Shown: positions 2,285 to 15,260 of the stretch, one piece after another
Numbering within the stretch: position 1 is the first letter of the stretch
Layout of the letters: every line of letters starts with the position of its first letter
DNA from: an uncultured Litoreibacter sp.
Lineage (GTDB): Bacteria > Pseudomonadota > Alphaproteobacteria > Rhodobacterales > Rhodobacteraceae
Direction of reading: 5' to 3'
NCBI GenBank assembly: GCA_947494645.1
Contig: CANLVO010000001.1
Span: 744,001-808,000, forward strand
Length of the DNA stretch: 64,000 bases
Notes under the pieces: model-generated
What the model was told of the DNA's origin: nothing
Databases searched by the model: none
Seen by the model: the letters and a program-made list of their open reading frames with translations, nothing else
Made by a program: the position numbers and the translations under genes

Positions 2285-3520
2285 CTAGATTTTTTCCTGC
2301 GTATAGTGTCGCAGCTCGGCGCGGGCCACCTGCCTGCGATGCACGGCATCGGGTCCATCCGCAAGGCGCAACGTGCGCAGATGTGCCCATTGACGGGCGA
2401 GCGGAGTATCTTGGCTGATGCCCTGCGCTCCGAACATCTGGACGGCCTGATCGGTGACCTCTAGTGCCACGCGTGGGGCCTCAACCTTGATCTGGCTGAT
2501 CCACGGGGCTGCGGCGCGGGGGTCGCCCTGATCCATCATCCATGCGGCTTTCAGGCACAAGAGGCGCGCCTGTTCGATCTGCATCCGGGCATTGGCGATA
2601 TGGTCAAAATTCGCGCCCAGCTGGGCCAGCGGTTTGCCAAAAGCCTCGCGGTCAAGCGAGCGGCGGCACATCAGCTCAAGCGCGCGTTCGGCCATGCCGA
2701 TGGCGCGCATGGCGTGGTGGATGCGACCCGGCCCAAGGCGGCCTTGCGAGATCTCGAACCCGCGCCCCTGGCCAAGCAACATGTTGGCGGCAGGAACGCG
2801 GACATCAGTGAAGCGGATATGCATATGGCCATGCGGGGCCTCGTCGTCGCCGTAGACCTGCATCGCACGGAGCTTCTCAATGCCGGGCGTATCCGCGGGC
2901 ACCACGATCATCGAATGTTGCTGGTGGCGCGGGCCGTCCCGGGTGCTGCGGACCATGACGATATAGACGGCGCAGCGCGGGTCGCCTGCGCCGGTGGCCC
3001 ACCATTTCTCGCCGTTGAGAACGTAATCGTCGCCGTCGCGCACGCAGCTGAGCGAAATATTCGTGGCATCCGAGGAGGCCACGTCGGGCTCCGTCATCAG
3101 ATAGGCCGACCGGATCTTGCCTGCCAGCAGCGGGGCCAGCCAGCGCTCCTGCATCTCAGGCGTTCCGTATTTCTGGAACACCTCCATATTGCCCGTATCC
3201 GGCGCGTTGCAGTTGAAGCTTTCAGGGGCCAGATGCGCCCGGCCCATTTGTTCGGCGAAATAGGCATATTCAACAGTGCTGAGCTGATGGCCCTCATGCG
3301 ATGACCAGAGGTTCCACAGACCGCGCGTGCGCGCTTTCTCTTTCAGCCCCTCGAGAATTTCGGTCTGCCGCGGGGAGTGCTGCCAGCGGTCGCCGACCTC
3401 GACCTCGCGAAAATACTCGGCATCGAGAGGCGCAATCTCGTCGCGGACCATGGCGGTGACACCCTCCAACAACGTGGCGGCGTGGGGGCTGAGGCCAAGC
3501 ATCATGGCGCGTTCCTTCAT
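2285..3520 (-). CDS. acyl-CoA dehydrogenase, ACAD10/11 type
   Basis: A 411-residue flavin acyl-CoA dehydrogenase. The FAD/substrate segment MTEPDVASSD lies near residue 140 and the C-terminal segment contains FGKPLAQLGANFDHIA and LRLADGPDAVH. The ADGPD-x-VH ending replaces the usual YEGT motif and is the form I know from the ACAD10/ACAD11 group, which dehydrates phosphorylated 4-hydroxyacyl-CoAs. The start ATG follows a GGTGG-type site and excludes a long upstream frame that is only the antisense of the kinase gene. It is divergent, 75 bp apart, from an APH-like kinase. In ACAD10/11 the two domains are fused; here they are split genes. Confidence 0.88.
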   Translation of the reverse strand: MKERAMMLGLSPHAATLLEGVTAMVRDEIAPLDAEYFREVEVGDRWQHSPRQTEILEGLKEKARTRGLWNLWSSHEGHQLSTVEYAYFAEQMGRAHLAPESFNCNAPDTGNMEVFQKYGTPEMQERWLAPLLAGKIRSAYLMTEPDVASSDATNISLSCVRDGDDYVLNGEKWWATGAGDPRCAVYIVMVRSTRDGPRHQQHSMIVVPADTPGIEKLRAMQVYGDDEAPHGHMHIRFTDVRVPAANMLLGQGRGFEISQGRLGPGRIHHAMRAIGMAERALELMCRRSLDREAFGKPLAQLGANFDHIANARMQIEQARLLCLKAAWMMDQGDPRAAAPWISQIKVEAPRVALEVTDQAVQMFGAQGISQDTPLARQWAHLRTLRLADGPDAVHRRQVARAELRHYTQEKI

Positions 3521-3595
3521 GGTGGTAGCGGGTCGGGCCAGCCTATGGTCGCCTCGCCGCTTGTCAATTGCTGACGCAAAGGTAAAGTCAGAACC

Positions 3596-4633
3596 ATGGG
3601 TGGTTTGGGTGACATCGACGCGGGGGCGCTGGCCCCGTATCTGGCTGAGGCCGTGCCTGAGCTGGACGGCGTCGTGGCGTTGGAGAAATTCGCCACGGGG
3701 CAATCGAACCCGACCTACAAACTTCAAAGCCGCAATGGAACCTACGTGCTGCGGGCCAAGCCGCCGGGCGCATTGCTGAAATCTGCCCATCAGGTGGAGC
3801 GCGAATACAAGGTCATGGCCGCCCTGCAAGATAGCGCCGTCCCCGTGCCGCGCATGGTGCATTTGGCCGAGGACGCAGCATCGCCCTTCGGGCGTGCGTT
3901 TTTCATCATGGAGATGGTGGCAGGGCCGATTTACTGGGACCCGGCGGTCCCGGAGGTGGACACCGCGCGGCGTGCGGGGATTTACGACGCGATGAACCAG
4001 ACGCTGGCCGCCTTGCATGACGTGGTGCCGGGCGAGGTGGGATTGTCCGAATTTGGCAAGCCGGGGCAGTATTTTGCCCGGCAGACCGACCGATGGTCGC
4101 AGCAATACCGCGCCTCCAAGCTGGAAGAGAGCGCCGACATGGAGCGGCTGATGGCGTGGCTTGCCGAGGCCATGCCCGCCGAGGACGGGCAGGTCTCGCT
4201 CGTGCATGGCGACTTCCGGCTGGACAACATGATCTTTGAGGCGGAGGCCCCGGAAGTTGCGGCTCTTTTGGATTGGGAGCTGTCGACGCTGGGTCATCCG
4301 CTGGCCGATCTGGCCTATCAATGCATGCAATGGCGGTTGCCGCATCAAGGCGGCATGCGGGGCTTGGGCGGGTTGGACCGCGCGGATCGGGGCATCCCGT
4401 CCGAGGCGGATTATGTGGCGCGCTATTGCGAGCGGCGAGGCATCGCGGAGCCTGACAATTGGGCGTTCTATCTTGCGTTCTCCTTCTTCCGGCTGGCGGC
4501 GATTTTGACGGGCGTCGTGCGTCGGGCCCATGACGGCAACGCCTCGAACCCCGAGACGGCGCGCAGCTATGCCGCGGCCATTCCTTTGTTGGCGGGCGCC
4601 GCCTGCGCATTGATTGATGAGGGGCCGCGATGA
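3596..4633 (+). CDS. APH-family kinase, probable 4-hydroxyacyl-CoA kinase (LvaA/ACAD11-like)
   Basis: A 345-residue aminoglycoside-phosphotransferase-fold protein. It has the kinase catalytic loop HGDFRLDN at about 203-210 and the metal-binding LLDWELSTLGHP at about 223-234. Proteins of this type occur as the N-terminal domain of ACAD10/11 and as LvaA in levulinate catabolism, where they phosphorylate the 4-hydroxy group of an acyl-CoA. It is divergent from an ACAD10/11-like dehydrogenase and overlaps the following FadB-like gene by 4 bp. A role in 4-hydroxy fatty acid degradation is inferred from this context; antibiotic resistance is unlikely. Confidence 0.82.
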   Translation: MGGLGDIDAGALAPYLAEAVPELDGVVALEKFATGQSNPTYKLQSRNGTYVLRAKPPGALLKSAHQVEREYKVMAALQDSAVPVPRMVHLAEDAASPFGRAFFIMEMVAGPIYWDPAVPEVDTARRAGIYDAMNQTLAALHDVVPGEVGLSEFGKPGQYFARQTDRWSQQYRASKLEESADMERLMAWLAEAMPAEDGQVSLVHGDFRLDNMIFEAEAPEVAALLDWELSTLGHPLADLAYQCMQWRLPHQGGMRGLGGLDRADRGIPSEADYVARYCERRGIAEPDNWAFYLAFSFFRLAAILTGVVRRAHDGNASNPETARSYAAAIPLLAGAACALIDEGPR

Positions 4634-6702
4634 CCCACCCTGTCCGGCTTGACCGCCACGGATCCCTTGGGTTGATCGTGATCAACAACCCGCCTGTCAA
4701 TGCGCTAAGCGCCGCTGTGCGCCAGGGTATCGAGGCCCGGCTGCAGGAGGTTCTTGGCGATGACAGCCTGAGCGCCGTTCTGCTGGTGGCGGATGGGCGC
4801 ACCTTTCCGGCGGGCGCGGACATCACGGAGTTCTCCAAACCGCCGCAAGCGCCGCTTTTGCCAGAGCTGTGCAACATGATCGAGGCCAGCCCGAAGCCGG
4901 TTGTGGTGGCGCTGCATGGCACGGTGCTGGGCGGCGGGCTGGAACTGGCCATGGCCGCGCATTACCGGGTGGCTGACGAAAATACTTTGCTGGGCCTGCC
5001 CGAGGTGAAGCTGGGCATCTTGCCCGGCGCTGGTGGCACGCAGCGCACGCCGCGTCTGGTGGGGATCAAAGTGGCGCTCGACATGATGCTGAGCGGCCTG
5101 CCGATCAAAGCGGCGGACGCGGAACGGTTGGGCCTGATCGACGAGATAAGCCCGATGACGACCTTGCGCGGCGACGCTGCTGATCTGGCGAGCGAGGTCG
5201 GCGAGGTGCGGCGCACGCGCGATGCGCGCTCGCAGTTTCTCGATGGCGCGACCTGTATGGCCGACATTGCCGCGCGCCGCTCGGTGCCTGACCGGCCATT
5301 GGCCTCGCGCAAGATTATCGACTGCGTCGAGGCGGCCTTGCTGGTGCCGTTTGAGGTCGGGGTCGAGATGGAGCGGGACGCCTTTGTGGAATGCCTCGCC
5401 TCGGACGCCTCAGCCGGGCTGCGGCACGCGTTTTTCGCCGAGCGCAGCGCGGGGAAGTTCCCGGAGTTGTTAAGTGCTGTGCCCAAGCAGGTCGACACGG
5501 TCGGCGTGGTGGGGGGCGGCCTGATGGGCAGCGGTATCGCGATTGCCTGCCTTGATGCAGGCTTTGCGGTGACTGTCGTCGAGCAGGGAGAGGACGGCGT
5601 GACCGGCGCCTTGAACCGGATTGGTGCGCTGTACGAGAAGGGCCTGGCCAAGGGGCAAATGGGCGAAGGCGCGCTGACGGACCTGAACCTCACCACCGAA
5701 ATGGAGGCTCTTGGCAGTGCCGACATCATCATCGAATGCGCCAGTGAGGATGAAGAGATAAAGCAGGGCATCTTCGCCAAGCTGGGGCAGGTGGCCAAGC
5801 CCGATGCGGTGCTGGCCAGCAATACCTCCTACCTTGATCTGGAGCCCCTGACCCGTGCGTCGGGCCGGGCGGCGGATGTGGTGGCGATGCATTTCTTTGC
5901 GCCGGCCCACCGGATGGCGCTTGTCGAGATCGGCGTGCCAGAGACAGCAAACGCGCAGGCGATGGCCACAACGCATGCGCTGGCCAAGGCGCTTGGCAAG
6001 ACCCCGGTGCGCAGTGCGGCGGCTCCGGGGTTGATCGGCAACCAGATGCTGACCGCCTACCGCGCAACGGCGGACCGGCTGCTGTTGCGCGGTGCGCAGC
6101 CCGCGCAGGTTGATGCGGCGATGCGCAGCTTCGGGATGCCGATGGGGCCTTATGAGGCGCAGGACTATTCGGGGCTGGATATCGCCTGGGCGCGGCGCAA
6201 GGCGATGAAAACCCCTGATCTTGAAGCGCTGCTGCTGCCCGACATTCTGTGTGAGGCAGGACAGTTCGGGCGCAAGGCGGGCAAGGGGTATTACGTCTAT
6301 GACAGCGAGGGGAAGCGCGGCGCGGCGAACCCGGAGATGCTGACCATGCTGTTAGGCGAGCGGCGGATGCGCCCGATGGCAAAGCTGGCGCTGACGCCAG
6401 AGCTGATCCAGGATCACCTGATCGCCGCTTTGATCAATGCAGGCGCTGGGTTGCTGGAGGCAGGTACCGCCGCGCGGCCTAGCGATATTGACGTGGTGAT
6501 GGTGCATGGTTTTGGCTTCCCGCGCCACAAAGGTGGACCGATGCATCAGGCCGATATGCTCAGCACATTTGAGGTGGCCCGCCGGATCACAGAATATGCG
6601 CAAACCGACCCGGCGCATTGGCGCATTTCTCCGCTTCTTGCCCGTTTGGCCGCCGAGCGGATGCGATTTTCGCAGTATCAAGACGCCGGGATGCAAAAAT
6701 AA
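4630..6702 (+). CDS. FadB/FadJ-like enoyl-CoA hydratase / 3-hydroxyacyl-CoA dehydrogenase
   Basis: A 690-residue fused beta-oxidation enzyme. The N-terminal crotonase domain (about 1-190) has both catalytic glutamates in GGGLELAMAAH and LPEVKLGILPGAGGTQR. The 3-hydroxyacyl-CoA dehydrogenase part starts with the NAD-binding GVVGGGLMGSGIA at about residue 295 and keeps the catalytic His in AMHFFAPAHRM. Two C-terminal helical domains follow. It hydrates trans-2-enoyl-CoA and oxidises the L-3-hydroxy product. It starts inside the end of the kinase gene (4 bp overlap), so both are one operon. No thiolase partner is present here. Confidence 0.92.
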   Translation: MTHPVRLDRHGSLGLIVINNPPVNALSAAVRQGIEARLQEVLGDDSLSAVLLVADGRTFPAGADITEFSKPPQAPLLPELCNMIEASPKPVVVALHGTVLGGGLELAMAAHYRVADENTLLGLPEVKLGILPGAGGTQRTPRLVGIKVALDMMLSGLPIKAADAERLGLIDEISPMTTLRGDAADLASEVGEVRRTRDARSQFLDGATCMADIAARRSVPDRPLASRKIIDCVEAALLVPFEVGVEMERDAFVECLASDASAGLRHAFFAERSAGKFPELLSAVPKQVDTVGVVGGGLMGSGIAIACLDAGFAVTVVEQGEDGVTGALNRIGALYEKGLAKGQMGEGALTDLNLTTEMEALGSADIIIECASEDEEIKQGIFAKLGQVAKPDAVLASNTSYLDLEPLTRASGRAADVVAMHFFAPAHRMALVEIGVPETANAQAMATTHALAKALGKTPVRSAAAPGLIGNQMLTAYRATADRLLLRGAQPAQVDAAMRSFGMPMGPYEAQDYSGLDIAWARRKAMKTPDLEALLLPDILCEAGQFGRKAGKGYYVYDSEGKRGAANPEMLTMLLGERRMRPMAKLALTPELIQDHLIAALINAGAGLLEAGTAARPSDIDVVMVHGFGFPRHKGGPMHQADMLSTFEVARRITEYAQTDPAHWRISPLLARLAAERMRFSQYQDAGMQK

Positions 6703-6761: not shown

Positions 6762-6840
6762 CTTGAGGTAATTGCGTGTTTTCAGGCGAAGTACAACGAA
6801 GCGGCGCAGAGGTTTTCGCGCCGCACACAGGGAGAACCAC

Positions 6841-8094
6841 ATGAAACATCTCAAAATTGCACTGCTCAGCGGCGTTGCGGCGTTCGCGCTTGCCTCCACT
6901 GCCTATGCGGATGGCCATGCCTGCGATATCGGCGAAGGCCGCGTCAGCATCATTGGCAACGAATTCCCGGCGATCCAGACTTTGGGTGCGGGTGCTGCGG
7001 CATGTGCCTCGGACTCTGCTGAGGTCACGGCCAACCTGACCAAAGAGCACAAGAACATCCAAGTGCCCGGCATGACCAACAACCCGGCGGAATACACTGT
7101 CGCGATCATCTCGAACGGTTCCATCGCGCCGCTGATGACCGACAACCTGATCCGCCCGCTGGACGATCTGATCGCAGCCCACGCGCCTGACCTGCCCAAC
7201 CAGCAGAAGATCACGCTGGACGGCAAGGTGATGGCTGTGGCCTTCATGGCGAACGCGCAGCACATGGTCTACCGCTCCGACATTCTGGCAGAAGCCGGTC
7301 TTGAAGCGCCGAAATCCTACGAGGACGTGCTGGCGAACGCCAAAGTCCTGCGTGAGAAAGGCATCATGGAAAACCCGGTTGGCGGCGCATATTCCGCAGG
7401 TTGGGGCATCGGCCAAGAGTTCAACAACATGTTCATCGGGCATGGCGGCGAATTCTTCAAAGCTGGCACCGCCGAAGCGAACATCAACAACGAGAAGGGC
7501 GTCGCCACTCTCGAAATGATGAAGGCGCTGTCCGAGTACATGAACCCCGACTTCCTTGCGCTGAACAACAACGAGATTTCCGCTGAGTGGAAAGCTGGCA
7601 ACGTGGCCATGCTGCAAATGTGGGGCTCGCGGACACCTGCGCTGCTGGACCCTGAAGGCTCCGTGGAAGGTGTGGCCGAGAACACGGCTTTGACCGGCCC
7701 AATGATGGTTGGCGACAGCGGCACACCTGCAACTACCCTGTGGTGGGACGGCTGGACCATCGCGTCCAACGTGTCTGACGCAGACGCAGAGGCTTCGTTC
7801 AAAGCGATGATGGCATCGATTGATCCATCCATCCTTGAGCAGGAAGGCGTGAACGAGCAGGCTGTTTGGTTGATCGAAGGCTACGAGCCAACCAACCTGT
7901 CTGAGGGCGTGTTCCAGACCATCAAGTCCGGCGCCACACCTTACCCAACGCTGCCTTACATCGGCTTGCTGCACACCGCACTGGGTGCAGAGCTGCCTGA
8001 CTTCATGCAGGGCAAAGAATCTGCAGAGCAGACGCTGGCTGACGTCGAAGCGGCTTATACCGCTGCGGCCAAAGAAGCAGGCTTCCTGCAATAA
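6841..8094 (+). CDS. ABC transporter periplasmic solute-binding protein, carbohydrate type
   Basis: A 417-residue exported binding protein of the extracellular solute-binding family 1. A Sec signal peptide ends near residue 23 (AYA-DG). The mature part shows NEFPAIQTLG near the N terminus and a W-rich ligand region including MLQMWGSR and TTLWWDGW, typical of sugar or sugar-derivative binders. The ATG follows CAGGGAGAACC; an in-frame upstream ATG at 6772 would put 23 charged residues before the signal peptide and is rejected. First gene of a four-gene operon with two permeases and a MalK-like ATPase. Substrate cannot be told from sequence. Confidence 0.9.
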   Translation: MKHLKIALLSGVAAFALASTAYADGHACDIGEGRVSIIGNEFPAIQTLGAGAAACASDSAEVTANLTKEHKNIQVPGMTNNPAEYTVAIISNGSIAPLMTDNLIRPLDDLIAAHAPDLPNQQKITLDGKVMAVAFMANAQHMVYRSDILAEAGLEAPKSYEDVLANAKVLREKGIMENPVGGAYSAGWGIGQEFNNMFIGHGGEFFKAGTAEANINNEKGVATLEMMKALSEYMNPDFLALNNNEISAEWKAGNVAMLQMWGSRTPALLDPEGSVEGVAENTALTGPMMVGDSGTPATTLWWDGWTIASNVSDADAEASFKAMMASIDPSILEQEGVNEQAVWLIEGYEPTNLSEGVFQTIKSGATPYPTLPYIGLLHTALGAELPDFMQGKESAEQTLADVEAAYTAAAKEAGFLQ

Positions 8095-8101
8095 AACGAC
8101 C

Positions 8102-8133
8102 TTGGCGCGGGGGCTTTCGGGCTCCCGCGCCAA
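8102..8133 (+). terminator. stem-loop between binding protein and permease genes
   Basis: A 10 bp perfect stem (TTGGCGCGGG / CCCGCGCCAA) begins 7 bp after the binding-protein stop. There is no run of T after it, so it is more likely an mRNA-stabilising or attenuating hairpin that raises binding-protein levels relative to the permeases than a full terminator. The same arrangement occurs after two other binding-protein genes in this window. Confidence 0.7.
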
Positions 8134-8181
8134 ACACATATGATTGCTATCTCACTTACGTGAGGGTCGGGGGACACGGCA

Positions 8182-9207
8182 TTGAAACATAAGACATTCT
8201 TCTGGTTCTTTTTGCCCACCGGGCTGGCCATGTTGCTGTTCATTTTCCTGCCGATCGTCTCTGTTATCAGCCAGTCTTTGCATGTGCCCGTCGACGCCGT
8301 TCTGGTGACGGTCGAGGAATGCGGGCCGTTCGGCTGCAAACCTTCCACCACGATTGACCAAGAGGCCACGCAATTGCTGCGCGATGCCAACCCGTTGGGA
8401 CAATGGGCGGGCTTGGAAATCTACTTTGACCGTAGCCACCTTGCCGTGGCCGAGGTCGGGGAATTATGGCGTAATTCAGAGAGTTGGGGCGCGTTCTTCA
8501 ACCGCCTTGGCAACCTGCCATTCTACCGCGCCATGGCCTTCACGCTGACCTACACATTCGTGGCCACCCCGCTGCTGATCATCTTCGGCCTGATGATCGC
8601 GCTTGCGGTAAATACGCTAAGCAGCTGGATCAAGGGCCTTGTCATCTTCTTCTCGCTGCTGCCTTTCATCGTGACGCCGCTTGTCGGATCGCTGATCCTG
8701 TTCTGGATGATCGACGCAAGGGGAGTCGTCGGCTCCTTCATACAATGGGTGTTCAATGACCCCACGCTGAGCCTCAAGGCCTCCACGCCGCTGACTTGGA
8801 TCACGCTCATTGTCTACGGCATCTGGCACTCCGCCCCCTTTGCCTTCGTGATCTTCTATGCCGGCCTGCAAACGCTGCCGCAGGACACGCTGGAATCAGC
8901 CGTGATCGACGGCGCATCCCGCTGGCAGCGCATACGCTACGTTGTGATCCCGCATCTGACGCCGCTGGTGACCTTCGTGGCGCTAATTCAGCTCATGGAC
9001 AACTTCCGGGTGTTCGAGCCCATCGTGGGGTTCAACGCCGAGGCGCATGCCACGTCGCTCAGTTGGATCATCTACAATGACCTCAGCGGGGAGCAGCGAT
9101 TGCTGACCTCGGCTGCGAGTACCTCGGTGCTGACGATCCTGTGCGTTGCCATCCTTCTGAGCCCTGTGCTGGTGCGCACATGGCGTGACTTCAACGGGAA
9201 GACCTAA
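8182..9207 (+). CDS. ABC transporter permease, MalF/UgpA type
   Basis: A 341-residue inner-membrane permease. TM1 is near residues 8-30, then a long periplasmic segment (about 30-110) precedes the remaining five spans, as in MalF-type proteins. The EAA loop that docks with the ATPase is ESAVIDGASRWQRIRYVVIPHL-like near residue 240. The start codon is TTG at 8182: no in-frame ATG gives a full first membrane segment. It lies 87 bp after the binding protein and 3 bp before the next permease. Confidence 0.88.
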   Translation: MKHKTFFWFFLPTGLAMLLFIFLPIVSVISQSLHVPVDAVLVTVEECGPFGCKPSTTIDQEATQLLRDANPLGQWAGLEIYFDRSHLAVAEVGELWRNSESWGAFFNRLGNLPFYRAMAFTLTYTFVATPLLIIFGLMIALAVNTLSSWIKGLVIFFSLLPFIVTPLVGSLILFWMIDARGVVGSFIQWVFNDPTLSLKASTPLTWITLIVYGIWHSAPFAFVIFYAGLQTLPQDTLESAVIDGASRWQRIRYVVIPHLTPLVTFVALIQLMDNFRVFEPIVGFNAEAHATSLSWIIYNDLSGEQRLLTSAASTSVLTILCVAILLSPVLVRTWRDFNGKT

Positions 9208-9210
9208 GCC

Positions 9211-10104
9211 ATGTCAGAAACAGCAGTCTCCCAAGCGCAGTCCCGCTCCTTCATCCTGAACATCGTGATCTGGATCTTCGTCGCCTTCTGGCTGATCCTT
9301 GCCGCGTTCCCGTTCATCTGGACCCTCTGGGGGTCGTTCAAGGTCGAGCTGGACTTTTTCTCTTTGCAGGACTGGACCAACGCGCTGTTTGGCCCGCAAA
9401 CGCAGGCGGTGCACGGCTCGCCTTTCACGGGTGAGGGTTATCACGGCGCCTGGGTGCAGGAGGAGTTCTGGCGGGCGGTGCTGAACACCTCCATCGTGTG
9501 TTTCTGCGTGGTCTGCATATCGCTGACCTTCGGCACGCTGGGCGGCTACGCGCTGTCGCGCTCTGGTTTCCGGTATACGTTCTGGCTGCTGATGATCGCG
9601 CTGATCTTCCGCGCCATGCCGCCAATCACGCTTGTCTCGGGCTATTTGCAGCCGTTCTTTGCATGGAACGTCTGGGGCATACTGCCCACGTCGATCATCG
9701 TGCTGGTGGCGATCAACCAGCCGTTTACGCTGTGGATGCTGCATAGCTTCTTTACCAAGATCCCGATGGATCTGGACGAAAGCGCCAAGGTCGATGGCTG
9801 CACGCAATTCCAAGCCTTCCGATATGTGATCATCCCGGTGATGTGGCCGGGCGTGATAACCACGGGGCTGTTCTCCTTCCTGTTGGCCTATAACGACTTC
9901 GCGGTGACCGCGATGCTGCTGGCCAAGGAAAACCAGACCATGGTGCCCAAGATCGCGGGCTTCCTCGGCACCACGCAGACCGAGGGCAACGTCATGTTCG
10001 CCGTCGCCGCCGTGGTCTCGGCCACAGCGCCGCTTTTCGTGCTGGTGCTTTTCTTCCAACGTCAAATTGTCAGCGGCTTGACCGCAGGCGCCGTGAAAGG
10101 CTGA
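9211..10104 (+). CDS. ABC transporter permease, MalG/UgpE type
   Basis: A 297-residue inner-membrane protein with six predicted spans and an EAA loop (ESAKVDGCTQFQAF) near residue 190, where the Gly is conserved. It pairs with the MalF-type permease 3 bp upstream to form the channel and contacts the ATPase encoded 4 bp downstream. The protein contains a longer extracytoplasmic loop after TM1 carrying HGSPFTGEGYHGAW. Carbohydrate-family transporter; substrate unknown. Confidence 0.88.
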   Translation: MSETAVSQAQSRSFILNIVIWIFVAFWLILAAFPFIWTLWGSFKVELDFFSLQDWTNALFGPQTQAVHGSPFTGEGYHGAWVQEEFWRAVLNTSIVCFCVVCISLTFGTLGGYALSRSGFRYTFWLLMIALIFRAMPPITLVSGYLQPFFAWNVWGILPTSIIVLVAINQPFTLWMLHSFFTKIPMDLDESAKVDGCTQFQAFRYVIIPVMWPGVITTGLFSFLLAYNDFAVTAMLLAKENQTMVPKIAGFLGTTQTEGNVMFAVAAVVSATAPLFVLVLFFQRQIVSGLTAGAVKG

Positions 10105-10108
10105 TCCC

Positions 10109-11155
10109 ATGGCTCAGATTGTCCTCAAGAATATCAACAAGCGCTGGGGCAGCTTCGTGGGGGTGAAGGATTTCGACCTGACCATCCCCGACAAGGAGTT
10201 CCTGGTGCTGCTCGGCCCCTCGGGCTGCGGCAAGACCACCACCATGCGCATGATCGCAGGGCTGGAGGACCCGACCGAGGGGGAGATTTATATCGGCGAC
10301 CGGATGGTCAACAATGTCGACCCCAAGGACCGCGATATCTCCATGGTGTTCCAGTCCTACGGGCTGTACCCGAACATGACGGTCTACGAGAACATCCGCT
10401 TCCCGCTGAAGGTCCGCAAAGTGCCGGAATCCGAGCATCACGACCGGGTCATGAAGGCCTCGGCGATGGTGGAGCTGGATGATTTTCTGGACCGCAAACC
10501 CGCCGCGTTGTCCGGCGGGCAACGTCAGCGTGTGGCGCTCGCCCGTGCCATTGTCCGTAAGGCGCAGGTGTTCCTGATGGACGAGCCACTGTCAAACCTC
10601 GACGCCAAGCTGCGCGTCTCAACCCGTGCGCAGATCAAGAACCTCAGCCACGAGCTGCAGGCCACCACCATCTACGTGACCCACGACCAGATCGAGGCGA
10701 TGACCCTGGCAGACCGCGTCGTGGTCATGGAGAAGGGCGTGGTGCAGCAGGTCGGCACGCCGACGGATATTTACGACAACCCGGCCAACACGTTTGTGGC
10801 GAGCTTCATCGGCAACCCTGCGATGAACCTTGTGGAAGGCGAGCTGAAGGGTGGCACATTTACGGCCAAGAATATCGAGGTCAAAGGCCTCAGCGGCCCG
10901 GACGGCGCAGTAACATTGGGGTTCCGTGCGGAGGATGCCTCCGTCGCCAACGCGGGTGCAGGACAGATCACAGCGCCGGTCTATTCAATGGAGCTGTTGG
11001 GAGACGCAACCATGGTCACCGTACGCTCAGGTCAGGCCCTGATGGCGGTGAAAGCCGACAAGGAATTCCGTGCGGAGATCGGTGACAGTTTCTCAGCCTC
11101 AGTACCAGCAAGCATTTGTCACCTGTTCAGTACGCAGACAGGTGAGCGGTTATAG
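10109..11155 (+). CDS. ABC transporter ATP-binding protein, MalK/UgpC type
   Basis: A 348-residue ATPase. Walker A GPSGCGKT is at 36-43, the Q-loop FQSYGLYP near 81-88, the signature LSGGQ at 134-138 and Walker B VFLMDEP at 154-160, followed by the H-loop THDQ. A C-terminal TOBE/OB regulatory region (from about 240) matches the MalK/UgpC subfamily that energises carbohydrate importers. Last gene of the transporter operon. The region after it is intergenic with a small gene on the other strand. Confidence 0.93.
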   Translation: MAQIVLKNINKRWGSFVGVKDFDLTIPDKEFLVLLGPSGCGKTTTMRMIAGLEDPTEGEIYIGDRMVNNVDPKDRDISMVFQSYGLYPNMTVYENIRFPLKVRKVPESEHHDRVMKASAMVELDDFLDRKPAALSGGQRQRVALARAIVRKAQVFLMDEPLSNLDAKLRVSTRAQIKNLSHELQATTIYVTHDQIEAMTLADRVVVMEKGVVQQVGTPTDIYDNPANTFVASFIGNPAMNLVEGELKGGTFTAKNIEVKGLSGPDGAVTLGFRAEDASVANAGAGQITAPVYSMELLGDATMVTVRSGQALMAVKADKEFRAEIGDSFSASVPASICHLFSTQTGERL

Positions 11156-13736: not shown

Positions 13737-13812
13737 GCCCCTATAGCTCAGCTGGTAGAGCAACTGATTTGTAATCAGTAGGTCCGCGGTTCGAGTCCGT
13801 GTGGGGGCACCA
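13737..13812 (+). tRNA. tRNA-Thr (anticodon TGT)
   Basis: A 76-base cloverleaf. The acceptor stem pairs GCCCCTA with TGGGGGC, the D arm contains AGCTCAGCTGGTAGAGC, the anticodon stem-loop CTGATTTGTAATCAG presents TGT, and the T arm is CGCGGTTCGAGTCCGTG. The CCA end is encoded. Its 3' end (13794-13812) is the left attachment site of the integrative element that follows; the element therefore restored a complete tRNA gene. Confidence 0.97.
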
Positions 13813-13813
13813 T
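13794..13813 (+). repeat. attL: left copy of 20 bp attachment repeat
   Basis: AGTCCGTGTGGGGGCACCAT covers the T-arm end, acceptor strand and CCA of tRNA-Thr plus one base. An identical copy lies at 20709-20728. The integrase gene begins about 90 bp further in. Use of a tRNA 3' end as the recombination core is the usual habit of tyrosine integrases. Confidence 0.92.
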
Positions 13814-13832
13814 AAAAGCCACTTGAGGGCTT

Positions 13833-13900
13833 TGTTTTTCAAGGATATCAGGCACTTCGCGCCCATCCCGAGACACAAAACGGGACACAAATGGGACACA
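13833..13900. promoter_or_regulatory. left arm-type integrase site candidates
   Basis: Just inside attL lie TGTTTTTCAAGGATA (13833-13847), GAGACACAAA (13870-13879), GGGACACAAA (13882-13891) and GGGACACA (13893-13900). Near-identical strings occur inside attR, the first in inverted orientation (20662-20677), the others as GAGACACAAA (20610-20619) and GGGACACA (20633-20640). Shared end sequences outside the core fit arm sites of a lambda-type integrase or an excisionase. The left set also overlaps the integrase promoter. Confidence 0.55.
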
Positions 13901-13904
13901 TGCG

Positions 13905-15260
13905 ATGGTGGTAATGTTGAAACTCAAATACGTAGATAACCTGCCGGGAGGCCGCAAACGCTTTCGGAAGCGCCATTCTAAGGCCGCCATGGGGGTCTTG
14001 GGGGAGGAGTTTTTTCAGGTTCCCATGAAGGCGCGTGAAGGTGCTGCCCTTGTTGCCGAGCAAGAAACACTACTCGCAGAATATGAGAAGATCGAAAAGA
14101 AAGCCAAATTGAGGGCTGCGGGTCAGGGCGCGCTATCGCCTCTTGAACACTGGCGTGAAGCGGTTGCCGAAGTCACGGCCATGAAGGACGCCATAGTTGG
14201 CGGCCTCAGCGAGGACGACAAGCAAGCCGTCTTGGCAGATGACCTTCATCGCCGTGGCGCTGACCCAATCATGGTTCAAGCCTTAATGACCCCTAATGCG
14301 GAAGAGCCTCCGGCGTCCCTTCAAGATGCAAAAGAGATGTATCGCAAGTTGCGAGTGGATGGGTCTAGAGGGCGCTACAAGCGAAACCAGTTGGAACGCG
14401 TGTGTGGGCGCGTTGAAAAGGCGCTTGGTCCGCTGGGCAAGCTGGCCTTGGTAGACCTTAAGAGAGCGCACGGGCGTAAGCTGGAAGACACCTACAAGAG
14501 CGAACGGAAGAAAGATGGCTCCCCGCTCGCGCCTGCTTCTGTGGAACGTGAACTCAACATGCTTGTGGCGATGGTGAACCTTGCCATCGTTGAGTTTGAC
14601 TTAGAGGGCAAAGCAAAGAACCCCTTCATTGGTCTCAATACAGCCGACCCTGACGCGCCACCGGAAAGCGAGGGCCGTAAGCGCGACCCTCTCCCTAACG
14701 ACGTTATCTTAAAGATGCGGGAGCGCCTGAAAGAGAATGTAAGAGAACCTGCGCTGGGGCTTATCTGGCGACTTTTGCAAGGCACGGGTTGCCGAGTATC
14801 GGAGGTTGCTGGTCTGCGCGTCGAAGATGTTAGGATTGATGGTCCGTATCCTCACATTTGGGTCGAGTGGCACGAAGAGAGGCGAGTAAAGACCAAGGTT
14901 TCCATCCGAGCGGTTCCCCTTGTCGGTGACGCATTGTTGGCCGCTAGGGAAGCGGTAAAGCTGGCCGATGGGGAGCGAATGCTTTTCTCAAGGTATGCCC
15001 ATGAAGGGGGATATGAAGCGGTCTCTCAGGCGCTGATGAAGCATCTGAGGCAGGTCACAAGGGACAAGCGTCACGTCCTGCACTCCCTCCGGCACAACAT
15101 GAAAGACTGGCTTGTTCTGGCTGGCGTTCCCGAGAGAGTGGAGCATCGTCTTCTCGGACACTCACTGGGTGGTGAAGGTGACCGGGTCTATGGAGGAGAT
15201 GAGGCTAAGTTGAAAACAGCCACGGAAGCGATGGAAAAGGCGATTGATCTGGCCCCCTAG
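13905..15260 (+). CDS. int: tyrosine recombinase/integrase
   Basis: A 451-residue site-specific recombinase. The catalytic domain (about 265-445) shows Arg in GTGCRVSEVAGLRVEDV, Lys in the KTKVSIRAVPL beta-hairpin region, HSLRHNMKD (His-x2-Arg), LLGHS and the nucleophile Tyr in RVYGG. The N-terminal 140 residues are charged and helical and may bind arm sites; a core-binding domain is near 150-250. It lies 92 bp after the tRNA 3' end in which the element is integrated. Start ATG at 13905, with a second ATG three codons later also possible. Confidence 0.93.
   Translation: MVVMLKLKYVDNLPGGRKRFRKRHSKAAMGVLGEEFFQVPMKAREGAALVAEQETLLAEYEKIEKKAKLRAAGQGALSPLEHWREAVAEVTAMKDAIVGGLSEDDKQAVLADDLHRRGADPIMVQALMTPNAEEPPASLQDAKEMYRKLRVDGSRGRYKRNQLERVCGRVEKALGPLGKLALVDLKRAHGRKLEDTYKSERKKDGSPLAPASVERELNMLVAMVNLAIVEFDLEGKAKNPFIGLNTADPDAPPESEGRKRDPLPNDVILKMRERLKENVREPALGLIWRLLQGTGCRVSEVAGLRVEDVRIDGPYPHIWVEWHEERRVKTKVSIRAVPLVGDALLAAREAVKLADGERMLFSRYAHEGGYEAVSQALMKHLRQVTRDKRHVLHSLRHNMKDWLVLAGVPERVEHRLLGHSLGGEGDRVYGGDEAKLKTATEAMEKAIDLAP

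Follow-up and report, generated by a model that had tools for sequence, protein, structure and literature searches.

A split ACAD10/11-type kinase and dehydrogenase pair adjoined by a FadB-type gene in an uncultured Litoreibacter

In the ACAD10/11 system as described in PMC11342911 and PMC12440821, a kinase produces a 4-phosphoacyl-CoA and a dehydrogenase then releases the phosphate with cycling of FAD, leaving a 2-enoyl-CoA. The kinase and the dehydrogenase are a single fused chain in mammalian ACAD10 and ACAD11, and ACAD10 also includes an HAD-like domain. The active-site residues of mouse ACAD11, and mutants of them, have been published (PMC12440821), and bacterial orthologues of both proteins are reported to stand in for the domains of ACAD10 in vitro (PMC11342911). 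In the lva operon of Pseudomonas putida, the split kinase LvaA and dehydrogenase LvaC are described as acting on 4-hydroxyvaleryl-CoA via a 4-phospho intermediate, and the genes for LvaD, LvaE and the regulator LvaR are linked to them; LvaB is a small partner protein of LvaA.

The window examined here is a 64,000 bp stretch (contig positions 744,001–808,000) of a 3.44 Mb genome of an uncultured Litoreibacter sp. A preliminary description had placed three genes at 2285–6702, and all three open frames were found. The features of the locus are:

2285..3505, minus strand: acyl-CoA dehydrogenase of the ACAD10/11 (LvaC) type, 406 aa, assigned from Pfam, solved relatives and residue mapping
3506..3595, no strand: putative divergent promoter region, proposed from consensus matches and conservation
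3596..4633, plus strand: APH-fold kinase of the LvaA / ACAD10-11 kinase type, 345 aa from the ATG at 3596
4630..6702, plus strand: MFE-1/FadB-type enoyl-CoA hydratase / 3-hydroxyacyl-CoA dehydrogenase, 690 aa

The mechanically called dehydrogenase frame (2285–4531, 748 aa) is overlong, and the ATG at 3505 was taken as the start. The kinase frame extends from 3578 to 4633. The dehydrogenase and kinase genes diverge from a 90 bp gap, and the ATG of the FadB-like gene overlaps the kinase stop codon (ATGA). Pfam matches are Acyl-CoA_dh_N/M/1 in the dehydrogenase, APH (E 5e-46) in the kinase and ECH_1, 3HCDH_N and 3HCDH in the FadB-like protein. Among the flanking genes scanned, the neighbours include a Blh-type phosphatase, a sulfur transport protein, a metallo-beta-lactamase-fold protein, a sugar-type ABC transporter, GapR and an integrase.

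As the kinase and dehydrogenase are encoded by two divergent genes rather than one fused chain, the locus is not classed as ACAD10/11 itself. It also has no counterpart of the HAD-like domain of ACAD10, and differs from both mammalian proteins in that a FadB-type enzyme is encoded in the kinase operon. Compared with the published description of lva, where the genes form one operon, the pair is divergent, and no linked LvaD, LvaE or LvaR was found in the flanks scanned. The bacterial LvaA/LvaC orthologues assayed in PMC11342911 and the structural-genomics entries 3dxp and 4hr3 are likewise split members, but come from other organisms.

Against all solved structures, the dehydrogenase was most closely related to 4hr3 and mouse or human ACAD11 (8v3u, 2wbi and 8v3v; E 7e-123 to 5e-117), with the next acyl-CoA dehydrogenase at E 1e-39. 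It is 50.7% identical to mouse ACAD11 (186/367), and no NCBIfam model scored above its cut-off. According to PMC12440821, R626, H634, R637 and D753 of ACAD11 are special to ACAD10/11 and LvaC, and R631 is general. By alignment, R256, R261, H264, R267 and D383 correspond to R626, R631, H634, R637 and D753 of mouse ACAD11; all five residues checked are therefore present, four of them diagnostic. D383 occupies the position where the usual dehydrogenases have Glu, and R256, H264 and R267 (HAMR) match the phosphate-binding Arg626, His634 and Arg637 (HCMR motif). This five-residue set was found in 39/39 related dehydrogenases, the window's included, and in 65 of the 70 dehydrogenases near the kinase loci described below, the other five having the first four residues and the last position outside the alignment. 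None of six other dehydrogenases aligned from the same genome has the set (two further controls, L080 and L081, gave no alignment), nor was it found in eight alignments to other dehydrogenases in family loci. One other dehydrogenase of this genome, L073, has D at the Asp position without the three phosphate-binding residues.

The best solved relatives of the kinase are 3dxp (E 3e-95; 153/318 identical, 48.1%) and ACAD11 (E 3e-68; 122/299 identical to the mouse protein, 40.8%). Again, no NCBIfam model scored above its cut-off. The kinase residues named for ACAD11 in PMC12440821 are D220, N225, R86 and R176, of which Asp220, Asn225 and Arg176 align with D212, N217 and R168 here, in a numbering that includes six extra residues before the Met of the ATG at 3596. 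The published R86 falls on no Arg in the ACAD11 chain numbering used for mapping, and the Arg75-Glu76 pair, in which the Arg adjoins the helix-C Glu, could be placed from its context alone. Thus, the ACAD11 active-site residues that could be mapped are conserved in both proteins, with one kinase Arg number unmapped. The R-E-R-D-N residues are invariant in three sets of relatives (40/40, 80/80 and 18/18). Judged from these alignments, the kinase keeps its catalytic residues.

The two proteins also occur together. In a survey of 149 genera of the family (kinase E to 1e-20, dehydrogenase E to 1e-60), the kinase was found in 88 and the dehydrogenase in 83; 82 have both, six only the kinase, one only the dehydrogenase and 60 neither (Fisher p about 2e-33, with kinship ignored). 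Hence 82 of the 83 genera with the dehydrogenase also carry the kinase, and as 20/20 mostly more distant dehydrogenases (34–56% identity) keep all five residues, ordinary acyl-CoA dehydrogenases do not seem to have inflated this figure. For the 105 kinase matches, the dehydrogenase gene is in tandem before the kinase in 33, divergent in 10, in other adjacent orders in five and one, and within 20 kb in 19; in 37, none was there among the matches listed. The ACAD10/11 reaction, assigned in mammals only recently, is thereby placed in one bacterial family, where about half of the genera sampled have both genes.

A second set, of 80 kinase loci from genome contigs, comprises the best 80 of at least 276 relatives and is thus limited to close ones, the closest named being from Litoreibacter (92% identity in L130). 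A dehydrogenase gene is in reach in 70 of these 80 and divergent in 70/70, across gaps of 65 bp to 3.7 kb, and we conclude that the arrangement is not due to chance. Kinase relatives were also found on 218 of 72,556 plasmid records (E to 1e-30), all with less than 60% identity. These results uphold the split ACAD10/11-like pair of the preliminary description, which rests on the identities to mouse ACAD11, the diagnostic residues and the co-occurrence.

The FadB-like protein shares its domain order (ECH, then 3HCDH_N and 3HCDH) and its hydratase and dehydrogenase residues with peroxisomal multifunctional enzyme type 1 and the FadB-type 6ium, differing in that its gene overlaps that of a kinase. 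Both hydratase glutamates (E105 and E125) and the dehydrogenase residues (GxGxxG at 295–300, H421, E433 and N471) are present, and all catalytic residues are intact. The beta-oxidation enzyme that had been noted alongside the pair is a FadB-like enzyme of the following steps, encoded in the kinase's operon.

We consider it very probable that the locus encodes a split bacterial ACAD10/11 (LvaA/LvaC) system, in which the kinase phosphorylates 4-hydroxyacyl-CoA, the dehydrogenase eliminates the phosphate, and the FadB-like protein hydrates and oxidises the product. We infer these reactions from work on relatives; gene order, families, residues and co-occurrence are what the present analysis adds. 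An unlinked ligase would activate the 4-hydroxy acid, and the kinase would place phosphate on the 4-hydroxyl of the resulting 4-hydroxyacyl-CoA. In the dehydrogenase, Asp383 would take the alpha proton while Arg256, His264 and Arg267 hold the phosphate; hydride would pass to FAD and back with no need of an external electron acceptor, expelling phosphate and giving trans-2-enoyl-CoA. From its family, the FadB-like protein is predicted to add water to the 2-enoyl-CoA and to oxidise the 3-hydroxyl, and thiolases elsewhere in the genome, which has four Thiolase_C matches, would complete the round. Several observations weigh against this reading: no ligase or LvaD-type gene was found in the flanks scanned, kinase and dehydrogenase genes lie apart in many genomes, and the branch of the FadB-like protein in the tree described below is long (1.03). 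As bacterial relatives have already been assayed in print, this is a known pathway and not a new one. The group is marine and includes named strains, in which genetics could identify both the 4-hydroxy acid that is the natural substrate and the enzyme that acts next.

In the 80 kinase loci, the best of at least 276 relatives, a FadB-like gene follows the kinase in 20. Of about 23 linked FadB proteins, five have a decayed dehydrogenase half, and four of these keep the hydratase glutamates. The linked protein of L131 has Arg in place of the dehydrogenase His, and in that of L134 the NAD motif is altered and Asn is replaced by Thr; the dehydrogenase part is largely or almost entirely missing in L136 and L203, and both halves are degenerate in L207. 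At these five loci, the kinase still has its residues and the acyl-CoA dehydrogenase all five of its own. A second MFE-1-like protein is encoded elsewhere in the genomes of L131 (41%) and L136 (43%), none was found in those of L134 and L203, and that of L207 has a 32% protein, a possible MFE-1 relative of ambiguous type. A further FadB-type protein (29–31%) was found in 12/13 genomes, the exception being that of L196 (E to 1e-50). Loss of the dehydrogenase site (His or Asn) was seen in 5/24 linked and 1/37 unlinked (L113) FadB rows (Fisher p about 0.03). As the rows are related, L097 and L165, on contigs of equal length (31,863 bp), are probably one locus (making the count 5/23) and the unlinked L120 is misaligned at the NAD motif, this contrast carries small weight.

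How closely the FadB-like protein belongs to the pair is less clear than the chemistry of the pair itself. It could equally well be the genome's general MFE-1-type beta-oxidation enzyme, lying in the operon by chance, as part of anything more specific; we put the chances at about even that the chemistry is right and that there is no dedicated three-gene module. In a tree of 42 FadB proteins, the four linked to kinases form no clade, requiring four changes for four rows as in shuffles. The matches listed for the window's genome include no second MFE-1-type copy, only a FadB-type protein of 27% identity, and a FadB-like gene adjoins the kinase in at least four of the 149 genomes among the matches listed (this one, G069, G014 and G045, the last across a 710 bp gap). 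The loss of the dehydrogenase half in L134 and L203, whose genomes yielded no second MFE-1, is also a poor fit to an essential dedicated oxidation step. However, the two genes are adjacent in 11/11 Litoreibacter loci fetched, as well as in others, and are separated by 0–72 bp in 17 of the 80 loci; in the window they overlap. L131 and L136, moreover, keep a linked FadB gene that has lost the dehydrogenase site despite a second MFE-1 elsewhere. A FadB recruited as a dedicated paralogue is not supported by the tree, and the word 'dedicated' in the preliminary description went too far.

Its other specific suggestion, a levulinate-like substrate, fares less well. A levulinate (4-oxovalerate) module like that of P. 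putida would account for the relatives of LvaA and LvaC, some family loci also have an acyl-CoA ligase, SDR or histidine phosphatase gene, and the lva cluster of P. citronellolis is described in PMC6692424 as having kinase, histidine phosphatase, LvaC-like and SDR genes. Yet no acyl-CoA ligase, SDR (LvaD-type or other) or regulator was found in the flanking genes scanned here, and the ligase conserved in related loci has no relative in the genome closer than one of 35% identity. A levulinate-specific reading is thus unsupported, and we regard such a module as unlikely. LvaA had moreover been taken for the first step in levulinate use; according to PMC6692424, LvaE and LvaD act before it. It is more improbable still that the kinase serves another substrate, an aminoglycoside or a different hydroxyacyl-CoA, beside an ordinary dehydrogenase. 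APH-fold kinases are diverse, and for neither protein did an NCBIfam model score above its cut-off, but the likeness of the kinase to ACAD11 and 3dxp far exceeds its likeness to the aminoglycoside kinase model, and the dehydrogenase has phosphate-binding residues and co-occurs tightly with the kinase. An antibiotic kinase was rejected on the APH_3p score (42.5 bits, where the cut-off is 205). The chemistry first proposed was mostly right, 'dedicated' and 'levulinate-like' being too specific.

Many Rhizobiales loci have MaoC and SDR genes where others have FadB. In the 67 of the 80 loci with full flanks (13 with short flanks were left out), 15 have FadB without MaoC, 40 have MaoC without FadB, all with an SDR, two have both and 10 neither. 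Among the family loci the pattern is weaker: of the 30 whose flanks are complete (10 of 40 with short flanks left out), three have FadB only, eight MaoC only, one both and 18 neither; a 41st family locus, L071, has no kinase, and gene calling yielded almost nothing in L036, L067 and L068. By record titles, untallied, the split appears to follow Rhodobacterales versus Rhizobiales, and so does not represent many independent exchanges. MaoC together with the SDR, whose role is putative, could hydrate and oxidise the same enoyl-CoA as FadB. The best solved relative of the MaoC protein is Rv0130, which we take to be an R-specific enoyl-CoA hydratase. The PDB matches of one Rhizobiales SDR neighbour were mixed and did not separate a 4-ketoreductase from a 3-hydroxyacyl-CoA dehydrogenase. 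In our literature search on bacterial descriptions, which brought up the two ACAD10/11 papers, work on levulinate and unrelated titles, no FadB or MaoC neighbourhood of the kinase appeared among the entries listed. Both kinds of neighbour fit a product that leaves as 2-enoyl-CoA. Tentatively, the kinase-coupled FadB-type protein may be evolving towards a role as hydratase partner to the dehydrogenase that eliminates phosphate. A neighbouring hydratase (of MFE-1 type here; in many Rhizobiales loci of MaoC type, accompanied by SDR genes) would then receive the 2-enoyl-CoA released. The 3-hydroxyacyl-CoA dehydrogenase half would be expendable, having been decayed or deleted several times with the hydratase residues mostly kept.

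The divergent gap includes a candidate promoter directed towards the kinase, TTGTCA-16-TAAAGT on the plus strand (3561–3588), which ends seven bases before the kinase ATG and was found once in the gap against a mean of 0.0 in shuffles. On the minus strand, the same heptamer reads TTGACAA, and TAGGCT lies 16 bases after TTGACA; in the window this dehydrogenase-ward -10 match is weak (3/6). In a chosen set of 24 short gaps, from which L166, L170 and L193 were left out, GTCAAT is present in 21, against 0.55 expected by plain shuffling, though the sequences are related. The plus-strand pair, with spacing 16 and at least 3/6 matches at -10, was found in 13 of the 24, namely the Litoreibacter set and L142, with 6–8 bases to the ATG. 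These consensus matches and their conservation suggest that the kinase mRNA may be leaderless.

In many of the relative loci L145-L209, the same divergent arrangement of kinase and dehydrogenase genes is flanked by MaoC, SDR and TetR genes and not by FadB; hosts of this form include Mesorhizobium and Aurantimonas, among others. FadB-like proteins whose own dehydrogenase half has decayed or been deleted were found linked to the kinase, each as an open frame at the following coordinates within its locus:

L131:5565-7634, FadB-like, open frame
L134:5535-7583, FadB-like, open frame
L136:5529-7289, FadB-like, open frame
L203:5525-6847, FadB-like, open frame
L207:5512-7491, FadB-like, open frame

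The hydratase glutamates are retained in four of these five proteins.

A second, distant dehydrogenase clade is present within the Rhodobacteraceae (L233-L247 except L241), characterized by the motifs QxRLGPARLTHCMRWLG and RLVDGADEV. Its members carry the same set of phosphate-binding residues (Arg626, His634 and Arg637 of mouse ACAD11), and most have their own kinase close by.

In five Rhodobacteraceae loci (L047, L056, L069, L070 and L072), the kinase gene is adjoined by a histidine phosphatase gene, an assignment made by scanning one of the five and by clustering of the other four with it. The lva cluster of P. citronellolis also contains a histidine phosphatase gene (PMC6692424).

In the window, the dehydrogenase and kinase genes are separated by positions 3506-3595, where the sequence suggests back-to-back promoters that apparently have one -35 heptamer in common. 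The kinase mRNA is probably leaderless. The surroundings of the three genes comprise:

31-2390, next to the dehydrogenase, genes for a Blh-type phosphatase, a sulfur transport protein and a protein of the metallo-beta-lactamase fold
6772-11155, 3' of FadB, an ABC transporter of the sugar type made up of a solute-binding protein, two permeases and an ATPase
13737-15260, tRNA-Thr (tgt), then phage-type integrase

By eye, at least one gene similar to the 31-2390 set lies at the same place in L183, L207, L134 and L136, and the first gene or genes of the transporter likewise follow FadB in L134 and L136. The tRNA-Thr and integrase possibly mark the edge of a mobile island.
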